DNA from: a virus
Reading direction: 5' to 3' (one strand)
Length of the DNA stretch: 21,567 nucleotides
IMG/VR virus record: IMGVR_UViG_3300042905_002479
Location: 1-21,567 of that record
Part shown: piece after piece, positions 1-17,275 of the stretch
Layout: each line of letters starts with the position of its first letter
Position numbering within the stretch: position 1 is the stretch's first letter
Position numbers and translations under genes: made by a program
The notes under the pieces: generated by a model
What the model was told of the DNA's origin: nothing
Database searches by the model: none
The model's input: only the letters and a program-made list of their open reading frames with translations

Positions 1-159
1 GCTGATGTAGTCCACTCCCTTTTGGGACTTCTGTTTCCAGCCCGCCACATCAAGGTTCACACCATTGATCATGACCTTACCCTTGTGGGTGGGGGCTTTG
101 GGGTTATCACTTTTGTTCGGGAACAAAGCTCCCGAATTGTCTTTTTGTTGGTTATTCAT
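1..159 (-). CDS. DUF736-like small protein, N-terminal part (cut by window edge)
   Basis: Fifty-three codons are visible, from ATG at 159 to the window edge, so the C-terminus is missing. A polar, Asn/Lys-rich start leads into a segment reading GKVMINGVNLDVAGWKQKS followed by KGVDYIS. This resembles the core of DUF736-type proteins, in which a short beta strand is followed by a conserved A-G-W-K and a K-x-Y-I/L-S block. Members occur in phages and mobile elements and are often linked loosely to DNA metabolism, without an established reaction. It lies 5 bases downstream of the PD-(D/E)XK-like gene on the same strand and is probably co-transcribed with it. The family match is from memory of the motif; the reading frame itself is clear. 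Confidence 0.6.
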   Translation of the reverse strand, partial: MNNQQKDNSGALFPNKSDNPKAPTHKGKVMINGVNLDVAGWKQKSQKGVDYIS

Positions 160-164
160 ATAGT

Positions 165-620
165 TTATTTTTTTATTATCTCTTCACTAATGGCCAGCAG
201 ATCCACGGTGGGAACTACGGTCATCAGATCTTTTCTACCAGTTCTCTGGTAAAGTCTATAGACAGTGGGCTTCAAGCTTTGTTCACTATTTTCTGTCATC
301 CCTTCGATAAATGGCATGAGGGTTCGGCGTTTGACCACAATCCAATAGGAACGTGTTTCAAAGACGATGTAGTCGGCTTCTCCATAGAGCCAACCAAGTT
401 CCCCGTGGACATTGCGTAGCTCCACATAGTGCATGCGATCTGTGGGTTCGGGGTCATCCCGCCTCCACTTCTTCATCGCCTTAACATCATACCTTTTTCC
501 GTCTGATTCCACATCCCAATGTTCTTCCATATCCTGCTCTGGTGTGGAGAAATGAGGATTGGTTAGCAGTTCAGCAAAGCGTTGTTCAGCGCGCTGCCCG
601 ACCTCATAGCATGTGTTCAT
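165..620 (-). CDS. PD-(D/E)XK nuclease-like phage protein
   Basis: A 151-residue protein if it starts at ATG 620. A TTG at 656 would add 12 residues but overlap the upstream gene by 29 bases, so ATG is preferred. An N-terminal helix (YEVGQRAEQRF) is followed by HWDVESDGKRYDVKAMKKW, giving the D-x(n)-V-K pattern of a PD-(D/E)XK fold. Next comes VELRNVHGELGWLYGEADYI with further acidic residues and a YWIVVKRRTL strand. This arrangement is common in small phage proteins related to resolvase-type or restriction-type nucleases, where the Asp and Lys would bind metal at the active site. The nuclease activity is inferred and substrate is unknown; a catalytically inactive DNA-binding relative is possible. 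It is near the distal end of the minus-strand operon. Confidence 0.6.
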   Translation of the reverse strand: MNTCYEVGQRAEQRFAELLTNPHFSTPEQDMEEHWDVESDGKRYDVKAMKKWRRDDPEPTDRMHYVELRNVHGELGWLYGEADYIVFETRSYWIVVKRRTLMPFIEGMTENSEQSLKPTVYRLYQRTGRKDLMTVVPTVDLLAISEEIIKK

Positions 621-627
621 TGATGCG

Positions 628-834
628 TTAGACAGCTTGGCGTTTAAGATGTTCAAAGTTTTTCGCAGCCCACATCATGGCCTCGCCATCGTTGCCCACA
701 TCCTTGGCCCACAAGCAATTATCGCTCACCACTCCGCATTCCTGAAGAATATTCATAACATCACACTCGTTGGCAAAGCGGGCCTTGATCCAATTCTCTA
801 GCTTGTTACCAGTAGAAGAATGAGTAGATGCCAT
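628..834 (-). CDS. Hypothetical protein, 68 residues
   Basis: ATG at 834, TGA at 628. It is a soluble, mixed-charge protein with no membrane segment. It has three cysteines spread through the chain and a tryptophan/methionine-rich stretch (EAMMWAAKNFEHL). I recognise no domain. Its first 29 bases overlap the end of the 30-residue membrane peptide gene at 806-898 in another frame, and it ends 7 bases before the likely start of the PD-(D/E)XK-like gene. No Shine-Dalgarno site precedes it, so initiation probably depends on coupling with the overlapping upstream reading frame. It is supported mainly by tight packing and plausible composition. Confidence 0.5.
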   Translation of the reverse strand: MASTHSSTGNKLENWIKARFANECDVMNILQECGVVSDNCLWAKDVGNDGEAMMWAAKNFEHLKRQAV

Positions 835-898
835 AGAAAGTAAAGACCCAGAAGAATAGTGAGAAGATAATTGAGATGGCTAGGACTACAGGATTCAT
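806..898 (-). CDS. Single-pass membrane peptide, 30 residues
   Basis: ATG at 898 overlaps the stop of the preceding peptide gene (ATGA), and TAA is at 806-808. The product is almost wholly hydrophobic and aromatic: an MNPVVLAISIIFSLFFWVFT core, then a Tyr/Phe/Trp-rich tail. It should span the membrane once with almost no soluble part. It is the last of three consecutive coupled peptide genes of nearly identical size, and its own 3' end overlaps the next gene by 29 bases. Small phage membrane peptides of this type can be holin-like, superinfection-exclusion or host-takeover factors, but nothing here decides which. Three coupled ORFs of the same character argue against chance. Confidence 0.5.
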   Translation of the reverse strand: MNPVVLAISIIFSLFFWVFTFYGIYSFFYW

Positions 899-984
899 CG
901 CGGGTTGATAACATCCTTGAGAATTTTTAGACCGACCAATGCCAAAACAATCCAAAGCCCGTAAGCCAAGAGATAGTCGATCAT
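895..984 (-). CDS. Single-pass membrane peptide, 29 residues
   Basis: ATG at 984 overlaps the TGA of the preceding gene (ATGA), and its own TGA overlaps the next ATG in the same way. The sequence begins MIDYLLAYGLWIVLALVGLK and ends with a short basic/polar tail. This gives one transmembrane helix, probably with the C-terminus in the cytoplasm by the positive-inside rule. No Shine-Dalgarno site precedes it, so translation is likely coupled to the upstream gene. Too short for family recognition; the double 4-base overlap is the main evidence that it is real. Confidence 0.55.
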   Translation of the reverse strand: MIDYLLAYGLWIVLALVGLKILKDVINPR

Positions 985-1073
985 AGGTCTTTATCCAAAA
1001 ACTTGCCTGTTGTTTTCATGTTTGCCCAGAACGTCAGGGCAAAGATACATAGTATCGTTGTTAGTGCTTCCAT
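981..1073 (-). CDS. Single-pass membrane peptide, 30 residues
   Basis: ATG at 1073 follows a U-rich run directly, and TGA at 981-983 overlaps the next ATG. The product has an N-terminal hydrophobic helix (MEALTTILCIFALTFWANMK) and a basic, polar C-terminal tail of about ten residues. It is the first of three coupled membrane-peptide genes. A GC-rich hairpin with a T-run ends exactly at its start codon, so its expression probably depends on reading through, or initiating after, that structure. No Shine-Dalgarno site is present. Function unknown. Confidence 0.55.
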   Translation of the reverse strand: MEALTTILCIFALTFWANMKTTGKFLDKDL

Positions 1074-1107
1074 AAAAAAGATAGGGAGGAGGCTAGTGCC
1101 TCCCCCC
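1074..1107 (-). terminator. Probable intrinsic terminator or attenuator abutting a start codon
   Basis: Bases 1084-1093 can pair with 1098-1107 in a 10-position stem with one mismatch (1087 against 1104) and a 4-base loop. On the minus strand the stem is followed by TATC and six T residues (1079-1074), then immediately by the ATG at 1073. A stable GC stem plus U-tract is the classic rho-independent pattern. The position suggests it separates the upstream block (1136 and higher) from the downstream peptide cluster, perhaps with partial read-through. Confidence 0.65.
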
Positions 1108-1135
1108 ATTTATTTCTGTAGTTTGAACCCGTTGT

Positions 1136-1276
1136 CTACAGAAAAAGATACGCAAACCAGCGGCACAACCCGAAACAGTTGGGTTTATCCTGTTTCGTTT
1201 TGGGACACGGGGCGTAGCCAATTCCACCATAAGGCCCGTAGACAATGCCGAATCCATTAGTGTAGTAGTGATTCAA
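1136..1276 (-). CDS. Gly/Tyr-rich small protein, TTG start, 46 residues
   Basis: No ATG frame occupies this stretch. A TTG at 1276 is preceded by a full AAGGAGGT (1286-1293) with 9-base spacing and opens a 46-codon frame ending TAG at 1136. The product has an N-terminal Gly/Tyr-rich half (HYYTNGFGIVYGPYGGIGY) and a C-terminal half with three cysteines, a basic Pro/Lys segment and a hydrophobic aromatic end (CRWFAYLFL). No family is recognised. The match to anti-Shine-Dalgarno is one of the very few strong sites in the window, so the start choice is well supported even though the codon is TTG. It lies between a two-helix membrane protein gene and the terminator at 1074-1107. Confidence 0.55.
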   Translation of the reverse strand: MNHYYTNGFGIVYGPYGGIGYAPCPKTKQDKPNCFGLCRWFAYLFL

Positions 1277-1285
1277 TTCCTTTCC

Positions 1286-1293
1286 ACCTCCTT
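1286..1293 (-). promoter_or_regulatory. Strong Shine-Dalgarno site for the TTG-start gene
   Basis: The minus strand reads AAGGAGGT, fully complementary to the 16S rRNA 3' end core, nine bases before TTG 1276. Most genes in the window lack such a site, and here it decides the start codon. Confidence 0.7.
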
Positions 1294-1327
1294 TCTGTAA
1301 AAGAACGAAGCTGGAATTATACCAGAA

Positions 1328-1486
1328 TTACTTAGTTCCGTAAAGCGTTACCCAAAGTAATCCCCATTGGGAGAAACAATATCCTCCCCAAATGACTGAT
1401 AGGGCGATGTTTCCGCGAATTGCCTGCTCTAGAGCAACGATTCCGTAACATATTCCCACCGCCCCGATCAGCCAAATACTGGTCAT
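1328..1486 (-). CDS. Two-helix membrane protein, 52 residues
   Basis: ATG at 1486 overlaps the TGA of the upstream gene (ATGA), and TAA is at 1328. The product has two hydrophobic segments: about residues 4-20 (IWLIGAVGICYGIVAL) and about 28-49 (ALSVIWGGYCFSQWGLLWVTLY). They are separated by a short polar turn containing Glu, Gln and Arg. This gives a hairpin membrane topology with very short ends. Similar small two-helix proteins are common in phage genomes as unannotated genes; a holin-like or membrane-modifying role is possible but unproven. A 72-residue frame on the same strand covers part of this region but has an unlikely Lys/Arg-rich composition. Confidence 0.65.
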   Translation of the reverse strand: MTSIWLIGAVGICYGIVALEQAIRGNIALSVIWGGYCFSQWGLLWVTLYGTK

Positions 1487-1722
1487 TTTTCTTCTTCTTT
1501 GGGTTGTGTTTCGGGCGCAAGCTGCTCAACCATTTCCTTGGCCCCTTCAAAGGTCATCAGGATATCGGCAGTAGCCTCGTTTTTCTCACCCTGAATCATC
1601 AGGATGTTGTCCGTTCCTCCGTTGAGAAGTGTATAGCCCTTGGCAATGTATGCCTTGTCTACACGTTCTTGGAGGCTATCGGGGGCCAGCGGGCTGGCAG
1701 TTTGTTCAGTTTGTTCGCTCAT
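1483..1722 (-). CDS. Hypothetical acidic protein, 79 residues
   Basis: ATG at 1722 overlaps the stop of the upstream gene (ATGA), and its own TGA overlaps the next ATG. The N-terminus is polar and probably disordered (MSEQTEQTASPLAPDS). A compact middle follows (ERVDKAYIAKGYTLLNGGTD, then a NILMIQGEKNEA strand), and the C-terminus is Glu/Lys/Pro-rich. No domain recognised. Composition and coupling at both ends support a real cytoplasmic protein. Confidence 0.65.
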   Translation of the reverse strand: MSEQTEQTASPLAPDSLQERVDKAYIAKGYTLLNGGTDNILMIQGEKNEATADILMTFEGAKEMVEQLAPETQPKEEEK

Positions 1723-1943
1723 AAGTTGGTTTGATAATTTTCGCTAAAGCGGACGAAGATGTCTCCGTCCATGTACATATGGTCGAGGTGGACTGGCTCT
1801 TTGTCAACCCTCCACAGAAACATTGCTGATCCGAATTCTCCCACCCGTTCAGTGGTGATATAGCCTTCTTGGTCTTTTTCAAAGTCCGAATATTCCCTCC
1901 AGCCAGTTATCCATTCAAATACCCTAGCCAATTGGTTGCTCAT
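1719..1943 (-). CDS. Hypothetical protein, 74 residues
   Basis: The preferred start is ATG 1943, giving MSNQLARVFEWITGWREYSD at the N-terminus. A TTG at 1979 would overlap the deaminase stop in a TTGA arrangement matching the tight packing of the neighbours, so the longer 86-residue form cannot be excluded. The protein is small, acidic and rich in aromatic residues (FEWITGWREY, MFLWRVD, MYMDGDIFVRF), with alternating strands that suggest a compact beta fold. No family recognised. The end overlaps the 79-residue gene by four bases. Confidence 0.6.
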   Translation of the reverse strand: MSNQLARVFEWITGWREYSDFEKDQEGYITTERVGEFGSAMFLWRVDKEPVHLDHMYMDGDIFVRFSENYQTNL

Positions 1944-1975
1944 GGAGAACAATAAAGATGTGGATTGTCTGGATG

Positions 1976-2422
1976 TCAAGAGAAAATAACACTAACCCCC
2001 GCCTCATCAAACATTTGTAGAGCGGCTTTGAAGGAATTGGCCCAGCGTTCATAACTATCCAAATGGGCGTTGAATGGGCAGTAAACCTCTTTTATCCCAG
2101 CTTGGATAATTGATGACGCACAATGGGCGCAGGGCTGGAAGGGCCATACAAAAATAGAATAGTCTTTAAGTGGTTCTTTGGCCGACAAGATGGCGTTCAT
2201 TTCGGCGTGGATTGTGTAGAGCAACTTAACCTCCCTATTGGTGATTCGGTGATTGCCATCATCCACTCCGCGAGGGAAGCCATTAAATCCTATGGATGCT
2301 ATGGTTCGGTCTGGTCGGACAATAACCGCTCCAACTTGTGACGAAGGATCTTTGCTCCATGTGGACACCTCTTCGGCCAACTTGATAAATCGCCCCTGCC
2401 ACTTAATGTTAATTGTTGCCAT
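1976..2422 (-). CDS. Deoxycytidylate (dCMP) deaminase-like protein
   Basis: A 148-residue zinc-dependent deaminase of the cytidine/deoxycytidylate superfamily. ATG 2422 is chosen over a TTG nine bases upstream. The core motifs are visible: H-A-E at residues 72-74 (zinc-binding His, catalytic Glu) and P-C-A-H-C at 97-101 (two zinc-binding Cys). SSQVGAVIV near residues 27-35 and GFNGFPRG at 45-52 are typical of phage dCMP deaminases. The expected reaction is dCMP to dUMP plus ammonia, supplying precursor for dTMP synthesis during phage replication. No thymidylate synthase is in the window. The length is usual for the family. The gene overlaps its upstream neighbour by 14 bases and belongs to the minus-strand operon. 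Confidence 0.85.
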   Translation of the reverse strand: MATINIKWQGRFIKLAEEVSTWSKDPSSQVGAVIVRPDRTIASIGFNGFPRGVDDGNHRITNREVKLLYTIHAEMNAILSAKEPLKDYSIFVWPFQPCAHCASSIIQAGIKEVYCPFNAHLDSYERWANSFKAALQMFDEAGVSVIFS

Positions 2423-2675
2423 CAACTTCAAATCCTTGGTTTTCCAGTTTCTTCACCATGTTGGCAATCATGGTGGATTTCAGCTTGCGCTCATAGCTAT
2501 CTTTAGATCTCCACATCTTGACTTCCGAAATTAGTAGATCAATTGAGATAATCGGGCTTTCTCCTTCAAATGTTTGATATTCGGAGAGTAGTTGCTTGAT
2601 CTCTTCAAGTTGGCTACATGAAGGGCATGGGACATATTCTTTGCCATTAAGCCCGTTGTTCATTAGATCAATCAT
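2409..2675 (-). CDS. Hypothetical protein with one CxxC motif, 88 residues
   Basis: ATG at 2675 overlaps the end of the upstream gene by 8 bases; an ATG at 2663 is an alternative start. Near the N-terminus is YVPCPSCSQLEEIKQLLSEY, a single C-P-x-C pair leading into a helix. Only one Cys pair is present, so a full zinc ribbon would need a partner chain. The remainder is helical and basic (KMWRSKDSYERKLKSTMIANMV). A DNA-associated or protein-protein role is plausible but nothing identifies it. It sits between the zincin-like gene and the dCMP deaminase. Confidence 0.6.
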   Translation of the reverse strand: MIDLMNNGLNGKEYVPCPSCSQLEEIKQLLSEYQTFEGESPIISIDLLISEVKMWRSKDSYERKLKSTMIANMVKKLENQGFEVDGNN

Positions 2676-3240
2676 AGTACGGATCGGTAAGCTTGCTAGG
2701 GGGAAATAATGCGGTCTTTAGGGGGATGATTTTTTCGGGCATCTGCGTCCAGATCCTTGTGGTCTCGTAGCTCTTCTTACACCACTTGCGATTGTTGAAC
2801 ATCCAATGGTAGCCCAAGATATAGGCGTTGGCCATCTGGGCATATTCCTTGAGATTTACTGGAAGCTTGTTGCGGGCAATCTTGCGGACGGACCTCATCT
2901 CACAATCCCACTCCAGTTCAATAACAAGACGAATATACTTGTCCACATAGTCTACCCGCTTGCCAGCCAACCATTCGTCCACCTTGCCAAGAGCGTCTTC
3001 TTTATTTTTGTGCCACTTGGGTCTTTGGGTCTGCTGGTCGAGATGGCAAGTCTCATGGACAAAGACATCTAGCCATGTGGATACGGGGCGCTTTGTGGCG
3101 ATGCGAAGCTCTTTGTCATCCGCCCAGCCGACAGAGGTGGCCTTGCCCGTGATGAGATATTTTTGGGGAACGAAAGTTAATTTAAACTTTCGATATTTGA
3201 GGATGGCCCGCCCCAAAAAGTTGATCGTTGCTTGATCCAT
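2668..3240 (-). CDS. Zincin-like putative metalloprotease (HExxH)
   Basis: A 190-residue protein with H-E-T-C-H at residues 62-66 in the helix WLDVFVHETCHLDQQ, matching the HExxH zinc-binding signature. Glu63 would be the general base. A third ligand could be Glu110 or Glu114 in VIELEWDCEMRS, as in gluzincin-like folds. The preceding ELRIATKRP strand is where the edge strand usually lies. There is no signal peptide, so it should act in the cytoplasm; phage relatives include SprT-like and other minimal zincins with mostly unknown targets. The C-terminal third is basic and aromatic with a tryptophan-rich region (GYHWMFNNRKW). It starts by sharing one base with the stop of the upstream gene (TAATG). 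Confidence 0.65.
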   Translation of the reverse strand: MDQATINFLGRAILKYRKFKLTFVPQKYLITGKATSVGWADDKELRIATKRPVSTWLDVFVHETCHLDQQTQRPKWHKNKEDALGKVDEWLAGKRVDYVDKYIRLVIELEWDCEMRSVRKIARNKLPVNLKEYAQMANAYILGYHWMFNNRKWCKKSYETTRIWTQMPEKIIPLKTALFPPSKLTDPYYD

Positions 3241-3422
3241 TAGTCTTCTTGGACATCTTCTTCTTCAACTTGTTCAAACAACCTTCTGATAGGATTGTCG
3301 CAAAAGCCCTCTTCTTGTTCTGGGAATGGCATCAGAACACCCGTGTCATCGTAGGCGACTTTTAGATCAGCATCAAAATCTCGCTGGTTCATTTGGCCCC
3401 ATACTACGCCTAATTTTCCCAT
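3240..3422 (-). CDS. Hypothetical acidic protein, 60 residues
   Basis: ATG at 3422 lies inside the last codons of the homing-nuclease-like gene, overlapping it by 13 bases. TAA at 3240-3242 overlaps the next ATG. The protein is strongly acidic, with a Glu/Asp-rich C-terminal tail (EQVEEEDVQED) and a central VAYDDTGVLMPFPEQEEGF stretch. No domain recognised. Acidic tails of this kind occur in DNA-mimic or partner-binding phage proteins, but that is only a suggestion. Confidence 0.55.
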   Translation of the reverse strand: MGKLGVVWGQMNQRDFDADLKVAYDDTGVLMPFPEQEEGFCDNPIRRLFEQVEEEDVQED

Positions 3423-4564
3423 CCTTCAATAATGTTTGATAGGGTTCTTGAATTTTTACTATACCACTTTCCGTCAAATACTTTTAAAACAACGCTGGGA
3501 TGGTATTTCGCCATCCTTTTGATTTTGGTTTTGCTTGCGGCGTCCATCCAGCCTTTGACTTCGTGATACTCAGTAGAGCCATCATTGTTGGTTACTTTGA
3601 AGTCTGGAAGATACGAGACACATCCGCGCTTAATGCCTTCAAACCAAAACGTTTCTGGTTCGTGAGACCAGTCTTTGATAAGCCCTTGGTTTTTCTGGAA
3701 CTCTAAATATCTGGCATAGTTTGCCTCCCAGCGGGATCTGTAAAACTTTCTTTTTCCGCCAATCTCCCTCCACGCAGCCCTCCATGTTCCTCGACCTTTC
3801 AATGGCGTCAAGCTGCCGTATCTTTTTAATCTTGTTTTGAGTTGGCGAATGACTCGCTCTCTTGGAACCTTTTTCCCCATTTGATTCTTTGACATGTTGT
3901 CTTTTGCTTCTTGGGTGTGTTTTTTTCCAAGCATGCCGCGAGGATGTGGATTGTTTTTGTGCCACTCTTTGCTTCGTTCACTCATCGCCAATCTGGCTTC
4001 AATTGCGTGACTTTTTCCAAGAAATCCATTTTTCCCACCACTGGCAAAGTATTCTTTGAGCGGTTTAACCATTTTTTCGCCGCCCTCAATCTCAAAGCGT
4101 TTCTTTTGGCCTATAGACAAGTTTTTCTTGTGTGCGTCAGAAAACGTCCAAGGCGCTGTTTTTGGATCGGAGCATCCATACCTAGAGGCTTTTATTGCGA
4201 CAGATGCGTGGGTTCTGCCCATACCCTTGGCTAATTCATGCAAGCAAAAGTCTTTCGCTGGCGTGTTCTTGTAATAATCTATTACCTTTTGCTTTTCTTC
4301 TTCTGTCCACTTTGCGTTGTTTAGTCTGTATCCAGCTTTATTGAGTCGGTCTTTTACAGTTTGTCCACGCACCCCGTAAATCTTGCCGACCTTGTGGACG
4401 CTTCCAAGTTCTTGATATTTTTCCCATAATTCCATGACTTGATTATGCCCAGCGTTGGAAAGATTGTCAATATCAAGTTTGTGCTGAAGTCGCTTTTTTA
4501 TAACATCGATACGCTCATAGACTCCTTTCTTTGTTTCTACATAGCCTGCGGGGATGGCGTTCAT
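3410..4564 (-). CDS. Homing-type endonuclease: HTH plus NUMOD3 repeats plus PD-(D/E)XK domain
   Basis: A 384-residue multidomain protein. Residues about 40-80 form a helix-turn-helix (VHKVGKIYGVRGQTVKDRL), and 84-130 are Myb/SANT- or HTH-like (KWTEEEKQKVIDYY...). Residues about 140-232 hold two or three NUMOD3-like DNA-binding repeats, two with the F/M-L-G-K-x-H motif (FLGKSHAIEARLAMSERSKE and MLGKKHTQEAKDNMSKNQMG). Residues about 275-365 look like a PD-(D/E)XK nuclease: Glu280, P-D at 320-321, then E-V-K at 335-337, close to phage DUF1064-type sequences. NUMOD repeats are hallmarks of free-standing homing endonucleases, usually with GIY-YIG or HNH catalytic domains; the pairing here is less usual. 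The start shares ATGA with the upstream gene. The stretch looks more AT-rich than its neighbours, fitting a mobile gene. Target site unknown. Confidence 0.7.
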   Translation of the reverse strand: MNAIPAGYVETKKGVYERIDVIKKRLQHKLDIDNLSNAGHNQVMELWEKYQELGSVHKVGKIYGVRGQTVKDRLNKAGYRLNNAKWTEEEKQKVIDYYKNTPAKDFCLHELAKGMGRTHASVAIKASRYGCSDPKTAPWTFSDAHKKNLSIGQKKRFEIEGGEKMVKPLKEYFASGGKNGFLGKSHAIEARLAMSERSKEWHKNNPHPRGMLGKKHTQEAKDNMSKNQMGKKVPRERVIRQLKTRLKRYGSLTPLKGRGTWRAAWREIGGKRKFYRSRWEANYARYLEFQKNQGLIKDWSHEPETFWFEGIKRGCVSYLPDFKVTNNDGSTEYHEVKGWMDAASKTKIKRMAKYHPSVVLKVFDGKWYSKNSRTLSNIIEGWEN

Positions 4565-4782
4565 GGATTCGGGATTTCATTTAAGTATTTTTCAGCATCT
4601 TCTTTATATCTAAAATAAGGTGCGTATTTGTAGATCCACTTAGGCCCGATACCAACTTCTTCAAAGTTTTTCCAAAATAACCATTTTTTGTATTGAGGGT
4701 AGTAAACAGTAATTTCCTGCCATTTTTTATCTAAGTAGCGAAAGTAAGCCTCCTGTTTTACTTCTTGAATTCTGTATTTCAT
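4561..4782 (-). CDS. Hypothetical protein, 73 residues, aromatic-rich
   Basis: ATG 4782 overlaps the stop of the upstream gene (ATGA) and is preferred over a GTG nine bases earlier. The product is rich in Tyr, Trp and Lys (KKWQEITVYYPQYKKWLFWK, then GPKWIYKYAPYFRY). No hydrophobic span is long enough for a membrane helix. No family recognised. It lies directly before the homing-type nuclease gene, shares the same AT-rich composition and overlaps it by four bases, so the two may have arrived together. Confidence 0.6.
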   Translation of the reverse strand: MKYRIQEVKQEAYFRYLDKKWQEITVYYPQYKKWLFWKNFEEVGIGPKWIYKYAPYFRYKEDAEKYLNEIPNP

Positions 4783-4946
4783 TGCTTCCACTCATCAGCT
4801 ACTTGTTTCATGGCGGCGTAATGCGAACCTTCCAGTTTGCCAGTCTTTAGCATTTTTTCTTCGGCGCGGTATTCCACTTCTTGGACGAAAACGGAGATCA
4901 CAAGGTTGATTGTTTCGCGATCTATATCTTTAAGTTTCTCTTTCAT
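4779..4946 (-). CDS. Hypothetical helical protein, 55 residues
   Basis: ATG at 4946 and TGA at 4779, with four-base overlaps at both ends. The product is a charged, probably all-helical protein: MKEKLKDIDRETINLVISVF, then EVEYRAEEKMLKTGKLEG and a C-terminal helix. No cysteines and no motif are recognised. Coupling on both sides and a normal amino-acid composition support it as a gene. Confidence 0.6.
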   Translation of the reverse strand: MKEKLKDIDRETINLVISVFVQEVEYRAEEKMLKTGKLEGSHYAAMKQVADEWKQ

Positions 4947-5116
4947 TGCTCAAGCAATACTTCCTCTTTAAGTCTTTCGGCTTCGGGGTCGGGGGCAATG
5001 CACATCATCAATGCTTGGCGGGCCTTCTCCAGTTGCCTTTCTTTCTGCTGTAGCAATACCTCAAACACATCTGGATGGACGGGGTTGATGTTGGAGTAAA
5101 CTCGTCCCACGTTCAT
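4943..5116 (-). CDS. Hypothetical coiled-coil-like protein, 57 residues
   Basis: ATG at 5116 overlaps the stop of the HTH gene (ATGA), and the TGA at 4943 overlaps the next ATG. After a short N-terminus, residues about 15-37 form a charged amphipathic helix (VFEVLLQQKERQLEKARQAL). A Pro-rich break (CIAPDPEAERL) and a second acidic helix follow. It is likely a small dimerising protein. No family recognised. Confidence 0.6.
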   Translation of the reverse strand: MNVGRVYSNINPVHPDVFEVLLQQKERQLEKARQALMMCIAPDPEAERLKEEVLLEQ

Positions 5117-14996: not shown

Positions 14997-15320
14997 ATGA
15001 GCAAGATCTGTATCCCAATCCCATCCAGCAGTGTTATCGGTGTGTCCTCATCTCCGATTACCACTCCAAGTATTAACATTCTTCGCGTCGAGCCATCAAT
15101 TACGGGACTTACTGGTGGAACGGCGACAGACCTTGATTCTTTAAATACCGTTAGCGGAACCTATGCGGTGGGTATTGTGGTATTTGTTGTCATCGGTGGA
15201 GTTCCAGCAATCTATCAACTAACCAACGGAACTGACACTGAAAACGATCCATTTGTTATCCGTCCTAATGATTATGATAGCCAAACTGGAACAAAACGAG
15301 TTTGGAAACGACTAATGTAA
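14997..15320 (+). CDS. Hypothetical virion-associated protein, 107 residues
   Basis: ATG 14997 follows the previous stop without a gap. The protein is Ser/Thr/Ile-rich at the N-terminus (SKICIPIPSSSVIGVSSSPI). It has a GTATDLDSLNTVSGTYAVGI strand region and a C-terminal YQLTNGTDTENDPFVIRPND stretch. The part from about residue 40 on resembles a fibre-shaft or attachment domain in which a parameter such as a value range is displayed on the particle surface. No signal peptide. It ends 2 bases before the start of the large fibre gene. Confidence 0.6.
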   Translation: MSKICIPIPSSSVIGVSSSPITTPSINILRVEPSITGLTGGTATDLDSLNTVSGTYAVGIVVFVVIGGVPAIYQLTNGTDTENDPFVIRPNDYDSQTGTKRVWKRLM

Positions 15321-15322
15321 CA

Positions 15323-17275
15323 ATGAAATATATTCTCTCACTTATTATCAGTGGAGCCTTGGTTGTTTCGGGCTTCGGGCAAACTCGGAACGTTCTTGTA
15401 GGAACCAATAATGCCGTAGTCCAACCCACCAACTTTTGGAGTGCTGATGCTTCCAATGCTCGCACGGGACTTGGATTGGGGACAGCGGCCACCAGTTCGG
15501 TATCAGCATTTCAGCCCTCTTCTTCCACGCTTTCCAATTTAGCGACTGGTAATGGCGGGGCATTGAGCAACCTTCAGGCCACAAATCTTGTTGGAATTAT
15601 TCCTGCATCTAATATCTCCACAGTCACATTCACCAACATTGGGGGAACGCTTGCTATTTCCAGTGGCGGCACAGGAGCGACTAATGCAGTCAATGCTCGT
15701 CAGAATCTTGGTTCCACAATAGTTGGCGATGCTGTGTTTATTGCCACAAACGCAGCAGCGGCTAGAACTGCAATTGGCGCTTTGGCAACAGATGGAAATG
15801 CCATTAATCTTACAAATTTTCCTTCAACCCTCCTTCGCATAAACGGCAATGGGGCGGGGCTTACGAATCTTACAGCCGAGAGTATCACGGGCGCTGTGTC
15901 CATTGCCAAGGGAGGCACTGGAGCCACTAACGCCGCAACAGCAAGAAGTGGTCTTGGTCTCGGCTGGTCTGCCCTCACCAACATTAATTCAACTAATTTC
16001 AGAACGGATATCGGGCTTGGTAGTGAAGGTTCTGTTGTATTTTCAAACCTGTCATTATCCAACGGGACCGCAACAAATCCTGCCCTTGCTATTGGTTCCG
16101 CAAATCGTGGATTCTTCGCAACCTCTGGGCCAGAAAGGATTGGTGTTGCCGTTGGTGGAAGCAATGTTGCTTCATTTTTCTCTACACAATTTGAGGTGTC
16201 TACATCATTAGCCACCGCTTCAAATGCTACAGTATCTGGCAACCTTATTTTGGGTGGCCCTGTTTCATTTATTGGAGCAGAGATAAGCGCCAACATTGCG
16301 ACTACTCGTACAAACCTCGGCCTCGGTGCAACTTGGCTGACCAACACCAACACGGCAGGATTCAACACCTCTCTCTATGGCAGCGGAACCAATCCCGTTT
16401 TATACAATACCAATGGAGAAGTAGTAAGCCCTACCAATTTCTGGGCAGTAGCCCCGATATCCACAACTGTCCAATATCAGACAAACGTTACTGGAACATC
16501 AACAAATGCCGCCACAAATAGCCGCAACCTATTCTTGTTCAGCCTTTCTCCTTCGGTTGGAGTAACTAATGTTACGAACATTGTGACGTTACCAACGAAC
16601 CCTGCAACCACATTTGAAGGAGATAGAGCTACTATTACCCATCTTGCCAATTCAACCAATGCAGTGACGGCCATTAGGCAATTGGGCGCGGCAACCAACC
16701 TAATCACACTCAACCAGCTTGATGAAACGGTTCTATTGATGTATCGCAGCGGAGCATGGAGATTGGCCGACAATATCTCTTACATTGAGCCTATCTATTT
16801 TTCGGGAACCAACGCAGCAGCCAATGCGGCGGCAAGTAGGACGAATTTGGGATTGGGAGAAAATGCAATTGTAAAATTTGAAGAAATTAATGCAAAATTA
16901 TACGCTGGTTCTGGAACAAATATCGTTTTTAGTTCCGCAATATTTTTTGATGATATTGATTCACAAAATATTGTCGAGCAGACCCGCACCAATCTTGGCA
17001 TCCCCCTCCCTGCCCTCACCAACACCAACAATGCCAATTTCCGCAATGCCATAGAACTCGGAGCCACTAACAACGTCTCCTTCTCCAATGTCACGGCATC
17101 TGGAACTCTGACAGCTACTGGCACTGTGACGGCAACCACCAATCTTGTGGTTAATGGGTTTGTAGACTTCTCCACCAACCACACCAACTCAAACCCCGCA
17201 ACCAGCAACCAGATCAATGACTTCATTGAGATTCGTGTTGGAACCAACCAATTCTGGCTACCAGTTTACAAATGA
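15323..17275 (+). CDS. Large tail-fibre-like protein with signal peptide, 650 residues
   Basis: ATG 15323 is preferred over a TTG at 15302. The protein starts MKYILSLIISGALVVSGFGQ, a signal peptide. The rest is Asn/Thr/Ala/Gly-rich and carries repeats typical of phage fibres: GGTGATNA twice (nt about 15666 and 15915) and A/T-R-T-N-L-G-L(G) copies across the chain (NARTGLGLG, ATARSGLGLG, TTRTNLGLG, AASRTNLGLG, EQTRTNLGI). LTN(T/I)N(T/S)xxF linkers also repeat. These motifs form trimeric beta-structured shafts. It would mediate host recognition. The signal peptide is odd for a virion protein assembled in the cytoplasm. It is flanked by the two related beta-sandwich genes. Its stop overlaps the next start (ATGA). 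Confidence 0.75.
   Translation: MKYILSLIISGALVVSGFGQTRNVLVGTNNAVVQPTNFWSADASNARTGLGLGTAATSSVSAFQPSSSTLSNLATGNGGALSNLQATNLVGIIPASNISTVTFTNIGGTLAISSGGTGATNAVNARQNLGSTIVGDAVFIATNAAAARTAIGALATDGNAINLTNFPSTLLRINGNGAGLTNLTAESITGAVSIAKGGTGATNAATARSGLGLGWSALTNINSTNFRTDIGLGSEGSVVFSNLSLSNGTATNPALAIGSANRGFFATSGPERIGVAVGGSNVASFFSTQFEVSTSLATASNATVSGNLILGGPVSFIGAEISANIATTRTNLGLGATWLTNTNTAGFNTSLYGSGTNPVLYNTNGEVVSPTNFWAVAPISTTVQYQTNVTGTSTNAATNSRNLFLFSLSPSVGVTNVTNIVTLPTNPATTFEGDRATITHLANSTNAVTAIRQLGAATNLITLNQLDETVLLMYRSGAWRLADNISYIEPIYFSGTNAAANAAASRTNLGLGENAIVKFEEINAKLYAGSGTNIVFSSAIFFDDIDSQNIVEQTRTNLGIPLPALTNTNNANFRNAIELGATNNVSFSNVTASGTLTATGTVTATTNLVVNGFVDFSTNHTNSNPATSNQINDFIEIRVGTNQFWLPVYK

Follow-up and report, generated by a model that had tools for sequence, protein, structure and literature searches.

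In bacteria, MgrB, AcrZ, CydX and KdpF exemplify regulatory membrane peptides that consist of a short single helix and probably act by binding a larger membrane protein. Phages also encode small single-span membrane proteins, and both Holin_LLH (PF09682) and the pinholins belong to the small membrane proteins of phages. The three peptides described here, T1, T2 and T3, are like MgrB and its counterparts in having a single short helix, without significant homology to them. With phage small single-span proteins in general, they share a length near 30 residues, a single helix that leaves no space for a catalytic part, and a location in a cluster of small genes. They differ from these in being three distinct families that occur together and are reordered next to G52, a gene whose product carries two hydrophobic stretches. 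They also differ from Holin_LLH and the pinholins, since they have no holin-family match and most of the long relatives of their phage (nine of 12) hold a separate PF09682 protein. P22 SieA and the DicB small protein, the latter acting on inner-membrane receptors, are reported to be phage-encoded factors with an action at the inner membrane, and such a role would fit the fast divergence of T1-T3. In contrast to these two, T1-T3 come from uncultured phages; they are likened to them by description, and exclusion is a putative function. At the level of titles and abstract openings, the literature yielded no description of a T1-T2-T3 trio.

Searches of Pfam, PHROGs, NCBIfam and PADLOC gave no convincing family match for T1-T3. 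The three peptides of the DNA analysed here had no Pfam or PHROG match at E ≤ 0.1, and for one relative of each, no Pfam or PHROG line at E ≤ 1 named a holin. The best PHROG line was phrog_22067 (unknown function), at E 0.01 for a T1 relative. The sole NCBIfam line related a T3 from one of the two clades delineated below (clade II) to MgrB, at E 0.19 and 11.9 bits for a cut-off of 40. T1-T3, G52, g68 and three neighbouring proteins were also compared to PADLOC, which returned no family at E ≤ 1.

Layout of the locus and membrane character of the peptides

The window, i.e., the whole stretch of DNA that was analysed, is a 21,567-base IMG/VR virus record. Its gene content, including a large terminase (phrog_2), a DnaB helicase and a dCMP deaminase, is that of a bacteriophage. 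A search for its host in a genome contig collection with the terminase as query gave no match. The minus strand carries, in this order, the dCMP deaminase gene, two small genes, G52, a cassette of about 250 bp holding g46, T1, T2, T3 and g68. The features of the locus are:

T1: positions 981-1073 (start 1073), minus strand; MEALTTILCIFALTFWANMKTTGKFLDKDL, 30 codons, single-helix peptide with a basic C-terminus
T2: positions 895-984 (start 984), minus strand; MIDYLLAYGLWIVLALVGLKILKDVINPR, 29 codons, single-helix peptide, the most constant of the three
T3: positions 806-898 (start 898), minus strand; MNPVVLAISIIFSLFFWVFTFYGIYSFFYW, 30 codons, single-helix peptide with a W conserved within the helix
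g68: positions 628-834 (start 834), minus strand; 68 aa, predicted soluble, start codon within T3 in the window
G52: positions 1328-1486 (start 1486), minus strand; 52 aa, two hydrophobic stretches, upstream of the peptide chain
g46: positions 1136-1276, minus strand; 46-aa ORF with a TTG start, within the cassette of about 250 bp between G52 and T1/T2
Promoter-like TTTACG-17-TATAAT: positions 1316-1344, minus strand; from a consensus scan, at the head of the g46 cassette
Terminator-like hairpin: positions 1084-1107, minus strand; its U-run finishes at the T1 start codon

The original prediction described three consecutive frames of 30, 29 and 30 codons with ATGA overlaps. It holds: the overlap is present at both the T1/T2 and T2/T3 junctions, and all three frames lie on the minus strand, which had been left unstated. 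The start of g68 overlaps the end of T3 by 29 nt, and g68 matches phrog_7637 (unknown function) at E 6.5e-4. Proteins resembling g68 (LQ-x-GVVSDN) are also encoded beside small hydrophobic ORFs in more distant phages (L262, L265, L268 and L269); in L262, the ORF next to the g68-like gene is G52-like. Elsewhere in the window, a 190-aa protein (2668-3240, minus strand) displays a HETCH motif of the HExxH type, whose H62, E63 and H66 are invariant in a 10-sequence alignment; it has no Pfam match at E ≤ 0.1. The plus strand encodes a 657-aa protein (15302-17275) rich in TNLGLG-like repeats, which differs in length among relatives (e.g., 814 aa in G002 and 692 aa in G001).

Hydropathy bears out the presence of one hydrophobic helix per frame. 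T1, T2 and T3 have the helix length and hydrophobicity of a membrane span: the best 17-residue Kyte-Doolittle mean reaches 1.6 or more in all distinct T2 (33/33) and T3 (29/29) proteins and in 11 of the 13 T1 proteins. The claim that the peptides have almost no soluble part is slightly too strong for T1, whose C-terminus comprises about ten residues, mostly polar. The T2 consensus is MVDYxxxYxFWIAIxxVxLKxIKDxINPx; in a 20-sequence alignment, V17 and D24 are kept throughout, and 90% or more of the sequences also have D3, K20 and K23. Many copies of T3 have a YG besides the conserved W.

According to the positive-inside rule, the more basic flank of a membrane helix lies on the cytoplasmic side. 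All distinct T1 (13/13) and T2 (33/33) proteins have more K and R in the C flank than in the N flank, and both peptides are therefore predicted to be N-out, C-in. Among 29 distinct T3 proteins, the N flank is more basic in eight, the flanks are equal in 20 and the C flank is more basic in one; the topology of T3 appears ambiguous, either neutral or opposite to that of T1 and T2.

Coding evidence, distribution and divergence in related phages

Using the neighbouring protein (2671-3240) as query gave 55 loci, and relatives were also gathered through alignments of neighbouring proteins. Profiles of T1, T2, T3 and G52 led to 41 distinct contexts, window included, from an uncultured phage group, contexts whose blocks were identical over their final 130 nt being counted as duplicates.

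An ATGA-chain of three ORFs of 28-33 codons occurs once in the window and in none of 500 dinucleotide shuffles, for a codon bracket that was set after the finding was seen. A looser chain, with a minimum of 20 codons per ORF and no upper limit, turns up in 213 of 500 such shuffles, which makes conservation the decisive evidence. Among pairs whose proteins are 60% identical or more, dN/dS amounts to 0.109 for T1 (103 pairs), 0.139 for T2 (153) and 0.113 for T3 (76), values that this choice of pairs biases downwards. In pairs chosen by G52 DNA identity, it reaches 0.189 (49 pairs), 0.235 (114) and 0.181 (58), respectively, at 85% identity or more, and 0.106 (21), 0.119 (33) and 0.118 (30) at 90% or more; third codon positions change most at both cut-offs. 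Conserved DNA with broken frames, a pattern that would argue against genes, was looked for and not found. These comparisons indicate that T1, T2 and T3 are almost certainly genes under purifying selection.

It is hardly credible that they are chance open frames in conserved DNA. Overlapping alternative ORFs do exist, for example one of 38 aa across T3 in the window, and, of the two remaining frames on the same strand, one is open in 0 and the other in 1 of 19 distinct T1 copies; the corresponding counts are 5 and 7 of 39 for T2 and 0 and 33 of 35 for T3. The frame that is stop-free in 33 of the 35 T3 copies is the +2 frame; nevertheless, the third-position bias tracks the T3 frame and, among the ORFs listed, only those of L082, L083 and L086 include one that starts with ATG in this alternative frame. 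A dN/dS of 0.11-0.24 combined with the third-position bias in the frames of all three peptides, and the persistence of these frames at protein identities as low as 30-45%, likewise speak against chance.

G52 is found in all 41 contexts, T2 in 39, T3 in 36 (E < 1e-3) and T1 in 22, counts that are partly circular because the first profiles were seeded from both clades. Profiles built from clade I only served as a control of this circularity for T2 and T3. Clade I (26 contexts) has G52 first, then the cassette where there is one, and then T1, T2 and T3; four contexts lack T1 and one lacks T3. These figures leave aside L104, which finishes at a contig edge after T1; it is counted among the 41 and accounts for one of the two in which T2 is missing, but the absence of T2 and T3 there is not evidence. 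Clade II (14 contexts) has no T1, and its order is G52-T3-T2 in 11 of the 14. L125, which lies outside both clades, has T3 alone, and L124 encodes a different hydrophobic peptide of 37 aa at the T3 position.

All 14 T2 copies of clade II are matched by the clade-I-only T2 profile, with E-values between 1.8e-16 and 5.1e-6. With the corresponding T3 profile, five of the 11 copies in clade II are listed at E ≤ 10, and two of these five fall below 1e-3. The swap of T2 and T3 is thus secure in L120 and L121 and probable in the other contexts, the identity of clade-II T3 being less certain than that of T2 on this profile evidence. Outside these contexts, L194 carries a T2-like ORF (E 0.0013) and L195 a T3-like ORF (E 0.26), and they extend the peptide families at most weakly. 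L196-L198 gave no match to the T1-T3 profiles below E 0.1, and a tblastn search of the phages collection with one clade-II T2 returned nothing at E ≤ 10.

A search for synteny in related phages had been suggested as a check, and the T1-T3 neighbourhood is indeed kept across the 41 distinct contexts. The spacing from T1 to T2 (n = 21) is -4 in eight contexts, -1 in three, -8 in one, +11 in one and +19 in eight. T2 and T3 are separated by -4 in 14 of 24 contexts and by +2 in the other ten. In the swapped order, the spacing from T3 to T2 is -7 or -8 in eight of 11 contexts and -16 or -19 in three, and that from G52 to T3 is -4 in ten of 12. The peptide genes stay close together, but only some relatives share the precise ATGA overlaps of the window.

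G52, T1, T2 and T3 occur together in 20 contexts, which provide 18 distinct trio sets, i.e., 153 pairs. The mean pairwise identity among these sets is 92% for G52, 69% for T1, 62% for T2 and 55% for T3. Between T1, T2 and T3, these identities are correlated (r 0.69-0.87); this suggests a partial joint inheritance, and such co-inheritance is compatible with some cooperation between the peptides. The identity gap between genes reaches at least 40 points in 12 of the 153 pairs; for example, the window and L099 share 36% identity in T1, 38% in T2 and 83% in T3. These large gaps indicate that the peptides are exchanged partly one by one.

Equal size and coupling had led to the proposal of a multi-component membrane device. 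The small single-helix genes, their close coupling and the synteny are borne out, whereas the absence of T1 from 19 of the 41 contexts, the occasional absence of T3, the order swap and the partly independent identities speak against one fixed device. In its strictest form, the proposal would be an obligate complex of three membrane subunits made in equal amounts through coupled translation. We consider such a complex unlikely. It would account for the ATGA overlap at both junctions of the window, for the correlated identities and for the 20 of 41 contexts that hold all three peptides; however, L134 has T1 and T2 without T3, L123 has T2 alone, the clade-II order is swapped and the distance between T1 and T2 varies from -8 to +19 nt. 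Optional membership, the clade-II order swap and partly independent identity patterns thus weaken any fixed three-part device.

G52 and the g46 cassette

G52 is widespread, with at least 333 confirmed stretches, and has homologues in five GenBank phage records, including that of Methylophilaceae phage P19250A. The gene that follows it was surveyed in the best 80 of these at least 333 loci, 64 of which were non-duplicate, readable contexts (15 were duplicates and one was unreadable). In this sample, a small hydrophobic ORF comes after G52 in 14 of the 64 contexts, all from the present group or from the contig of its near relative L195; in the other 50, the next ORF is non-hydrophobic in 46 and hydrophobic and larger in one, and three have none. 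An association of G52 with membrane peptides as a general rule was therefore rejected: outside the group, a membrane peptide is usually not next. One described protein occupies a comparable position. UOF80854.1, a 33-aa protein of MW202711.1 annotated as 'psbY', is encoded directly after a homologue of G52, and its gene shares an ATGA overlap with the one that follows; it differs from T1-T3 in giving no match to their profiles, its best PHROG line being at E 0.047. Its ORF (L151, 5137-5238) encodes one helix, and no Pfam match backs the PsbY label, so that its annotation as a photosystem II protein looks weak.

In most contexts without the cassette, G52 adjoins or nearly adjoins the next peptide. 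A cassette of 238-272 bp separates it from the first peptide in 20 contexts, one of them the window (positions 1074-1344, minus strand), and this cassette is gained or missing as a whole. It comprises a TATAAT/CATAAT block (CACAAT in L100), the invariant AAAGGAGGTG, the g46 ORF and a GC-rich hairpin. The promoter-like site agrees with the consensus at ten of 12 positions and has a TG. The TATAAT/CATAAT block is kept in 19 of the 20 aligned contexts; promoter-like sites are no commoner in this region than in shuffles, and such a match would not by itself be evidence of function. The g46 ORF lies behind a GGAGG-type sequence and keeps a GPYGGIGY-like motif. The hairpin of the window folds at -21.8 kcal/mol, and none of 200 shuffles is as stable; hairpins were folded in five of the 20 contexts, each being more stable than all 200 shuffles, and the alignment of the 20 contexts shows a GC-rich inverted repeat at this site. 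The T-rich tail of the hairpin abuts the T1 start in 14 of the 20, a spacer of about 20 nt intervenes in four, and T2 comes next after the cassette in the other two (L107 and L108). If the hairpin terminates transcription, expression of the peptides would depend on read-through.

The peptides might also be membrane toxins of a type I toxin-antitoxin-like system, for which the promoter-terminator cassette upstream would supply a regulatory RNA. Type I toxins are comparable to T1-T3 in size and hydrophobicity, and a compact unit with promoter-like and terminator-like ends abuts T1. Such a system is nevertheless quite improbable here: the cassette is on the same strand rather than antisense, it has its own ORF behind a GGAGG-type sequence, several relatives keep the peptides without it, and Rfam gave no match above the gathering score in positions 1-5000 of the window.

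Lysis genes and the possible role of the peptides

The original prediction also put forward a holin-like pore. If so, the three helices would oligomerise as a pore or lysis accessory that permeabilises the membrane, and the peptides are indeed small, very hydrophobic and single-helix. The window itself stops short of the holin/endolysin region, which is seen in longer relatives. The Holin_LLH match present in nine of the 12 long relatives is above the Pfam cut-off in eight, and in all nine the gene lies about 29-43 kb from the peptide chain, on the opposite strand. An endolysin gene is found within 1 kb of it in eight of the 12 (six CHAP-type and two Amidase_2, the latter in G002 and G005). 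The neighbours of the peptide chain are G52, g46 and g68, with no endolysin adjacent. In three of the four clade-II records, G007, G009 and G012 (54, 49 and 38 kb), neither a PF09682 holin nor an endolysin was found, which leaves some room for a lytic function of the peptides; the fourth, G008, is the only one with both, its holin being below the cut-off. A holin role is unlikely because Holin_LLH is found elsewhere in most long relatives, with an endolysin near it in eight, and the variable composition of the chain among relatives also argues against it.

The endolysins of these phages vary in their own right. The site alternates between Amidase_2 and CHAP genes, as seen when G002 (71473-72066) is compared to G001 (59218-59868), and the endolysins of G002 and G005 share only about the first 40 residues with the CHAP-type ones.

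The locus lies on the DNA-metabolism side of the genome, near the dCMP deaminase gene and far from Holin_LLH and the endolysin where these were found. The reading that we favour, with about even confidence, is that T1-T3 may be accessory inner-membrane peptides that act individually, for host takeover or superinfection exclusion. T1, T2 and T3 would be translated separately as single-span inner-membrane peptides, with translation probably coupled by the ATGA overlaps where these occur. T1 and T2 would span the membrane with their basic C-terminus on the cytoplasmic side, T3 being neutral or opposite. Each peptide alone would pack against an inner-membrane protein of the host (or of the phage) and alter its activity. 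The likeliest benefit would be takeover of the host membrane or exclusion of competing phages; we infer this target and benefit, whereas the coding, membrane and modular steps come directly from the sequence comparisons. An exclusion system was among the functions proposed at the outset, and an exclusion function is possible for T1-T3. Takeover or exclusion would explain why the peptides diverge and are exchanged faster than G52, although their fast divergence can instead reflect a weak constraint on hydrophobic helices.

A more speculative arrangement, to which we give little weight, would make G52 a scaffold for exchangeable helices. T2 would be its near-constant core, while T1, T3 or their replacements would act as plug-in specificity elements whose swaps retarget the host protein or phage that is blocked.

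These results add three conserved families of membrane peptides that four annotation libraries do not convincingly hold. They also call for caution, since a neat coupled trio in one genome does not amount to a fixed complex. Within one phage group, membrane peptides are exchanged, reordered and lost, yet they remain closely linked. If they retarget host membrane proteins, they would constitute a compact natural set of helix-helix binders.
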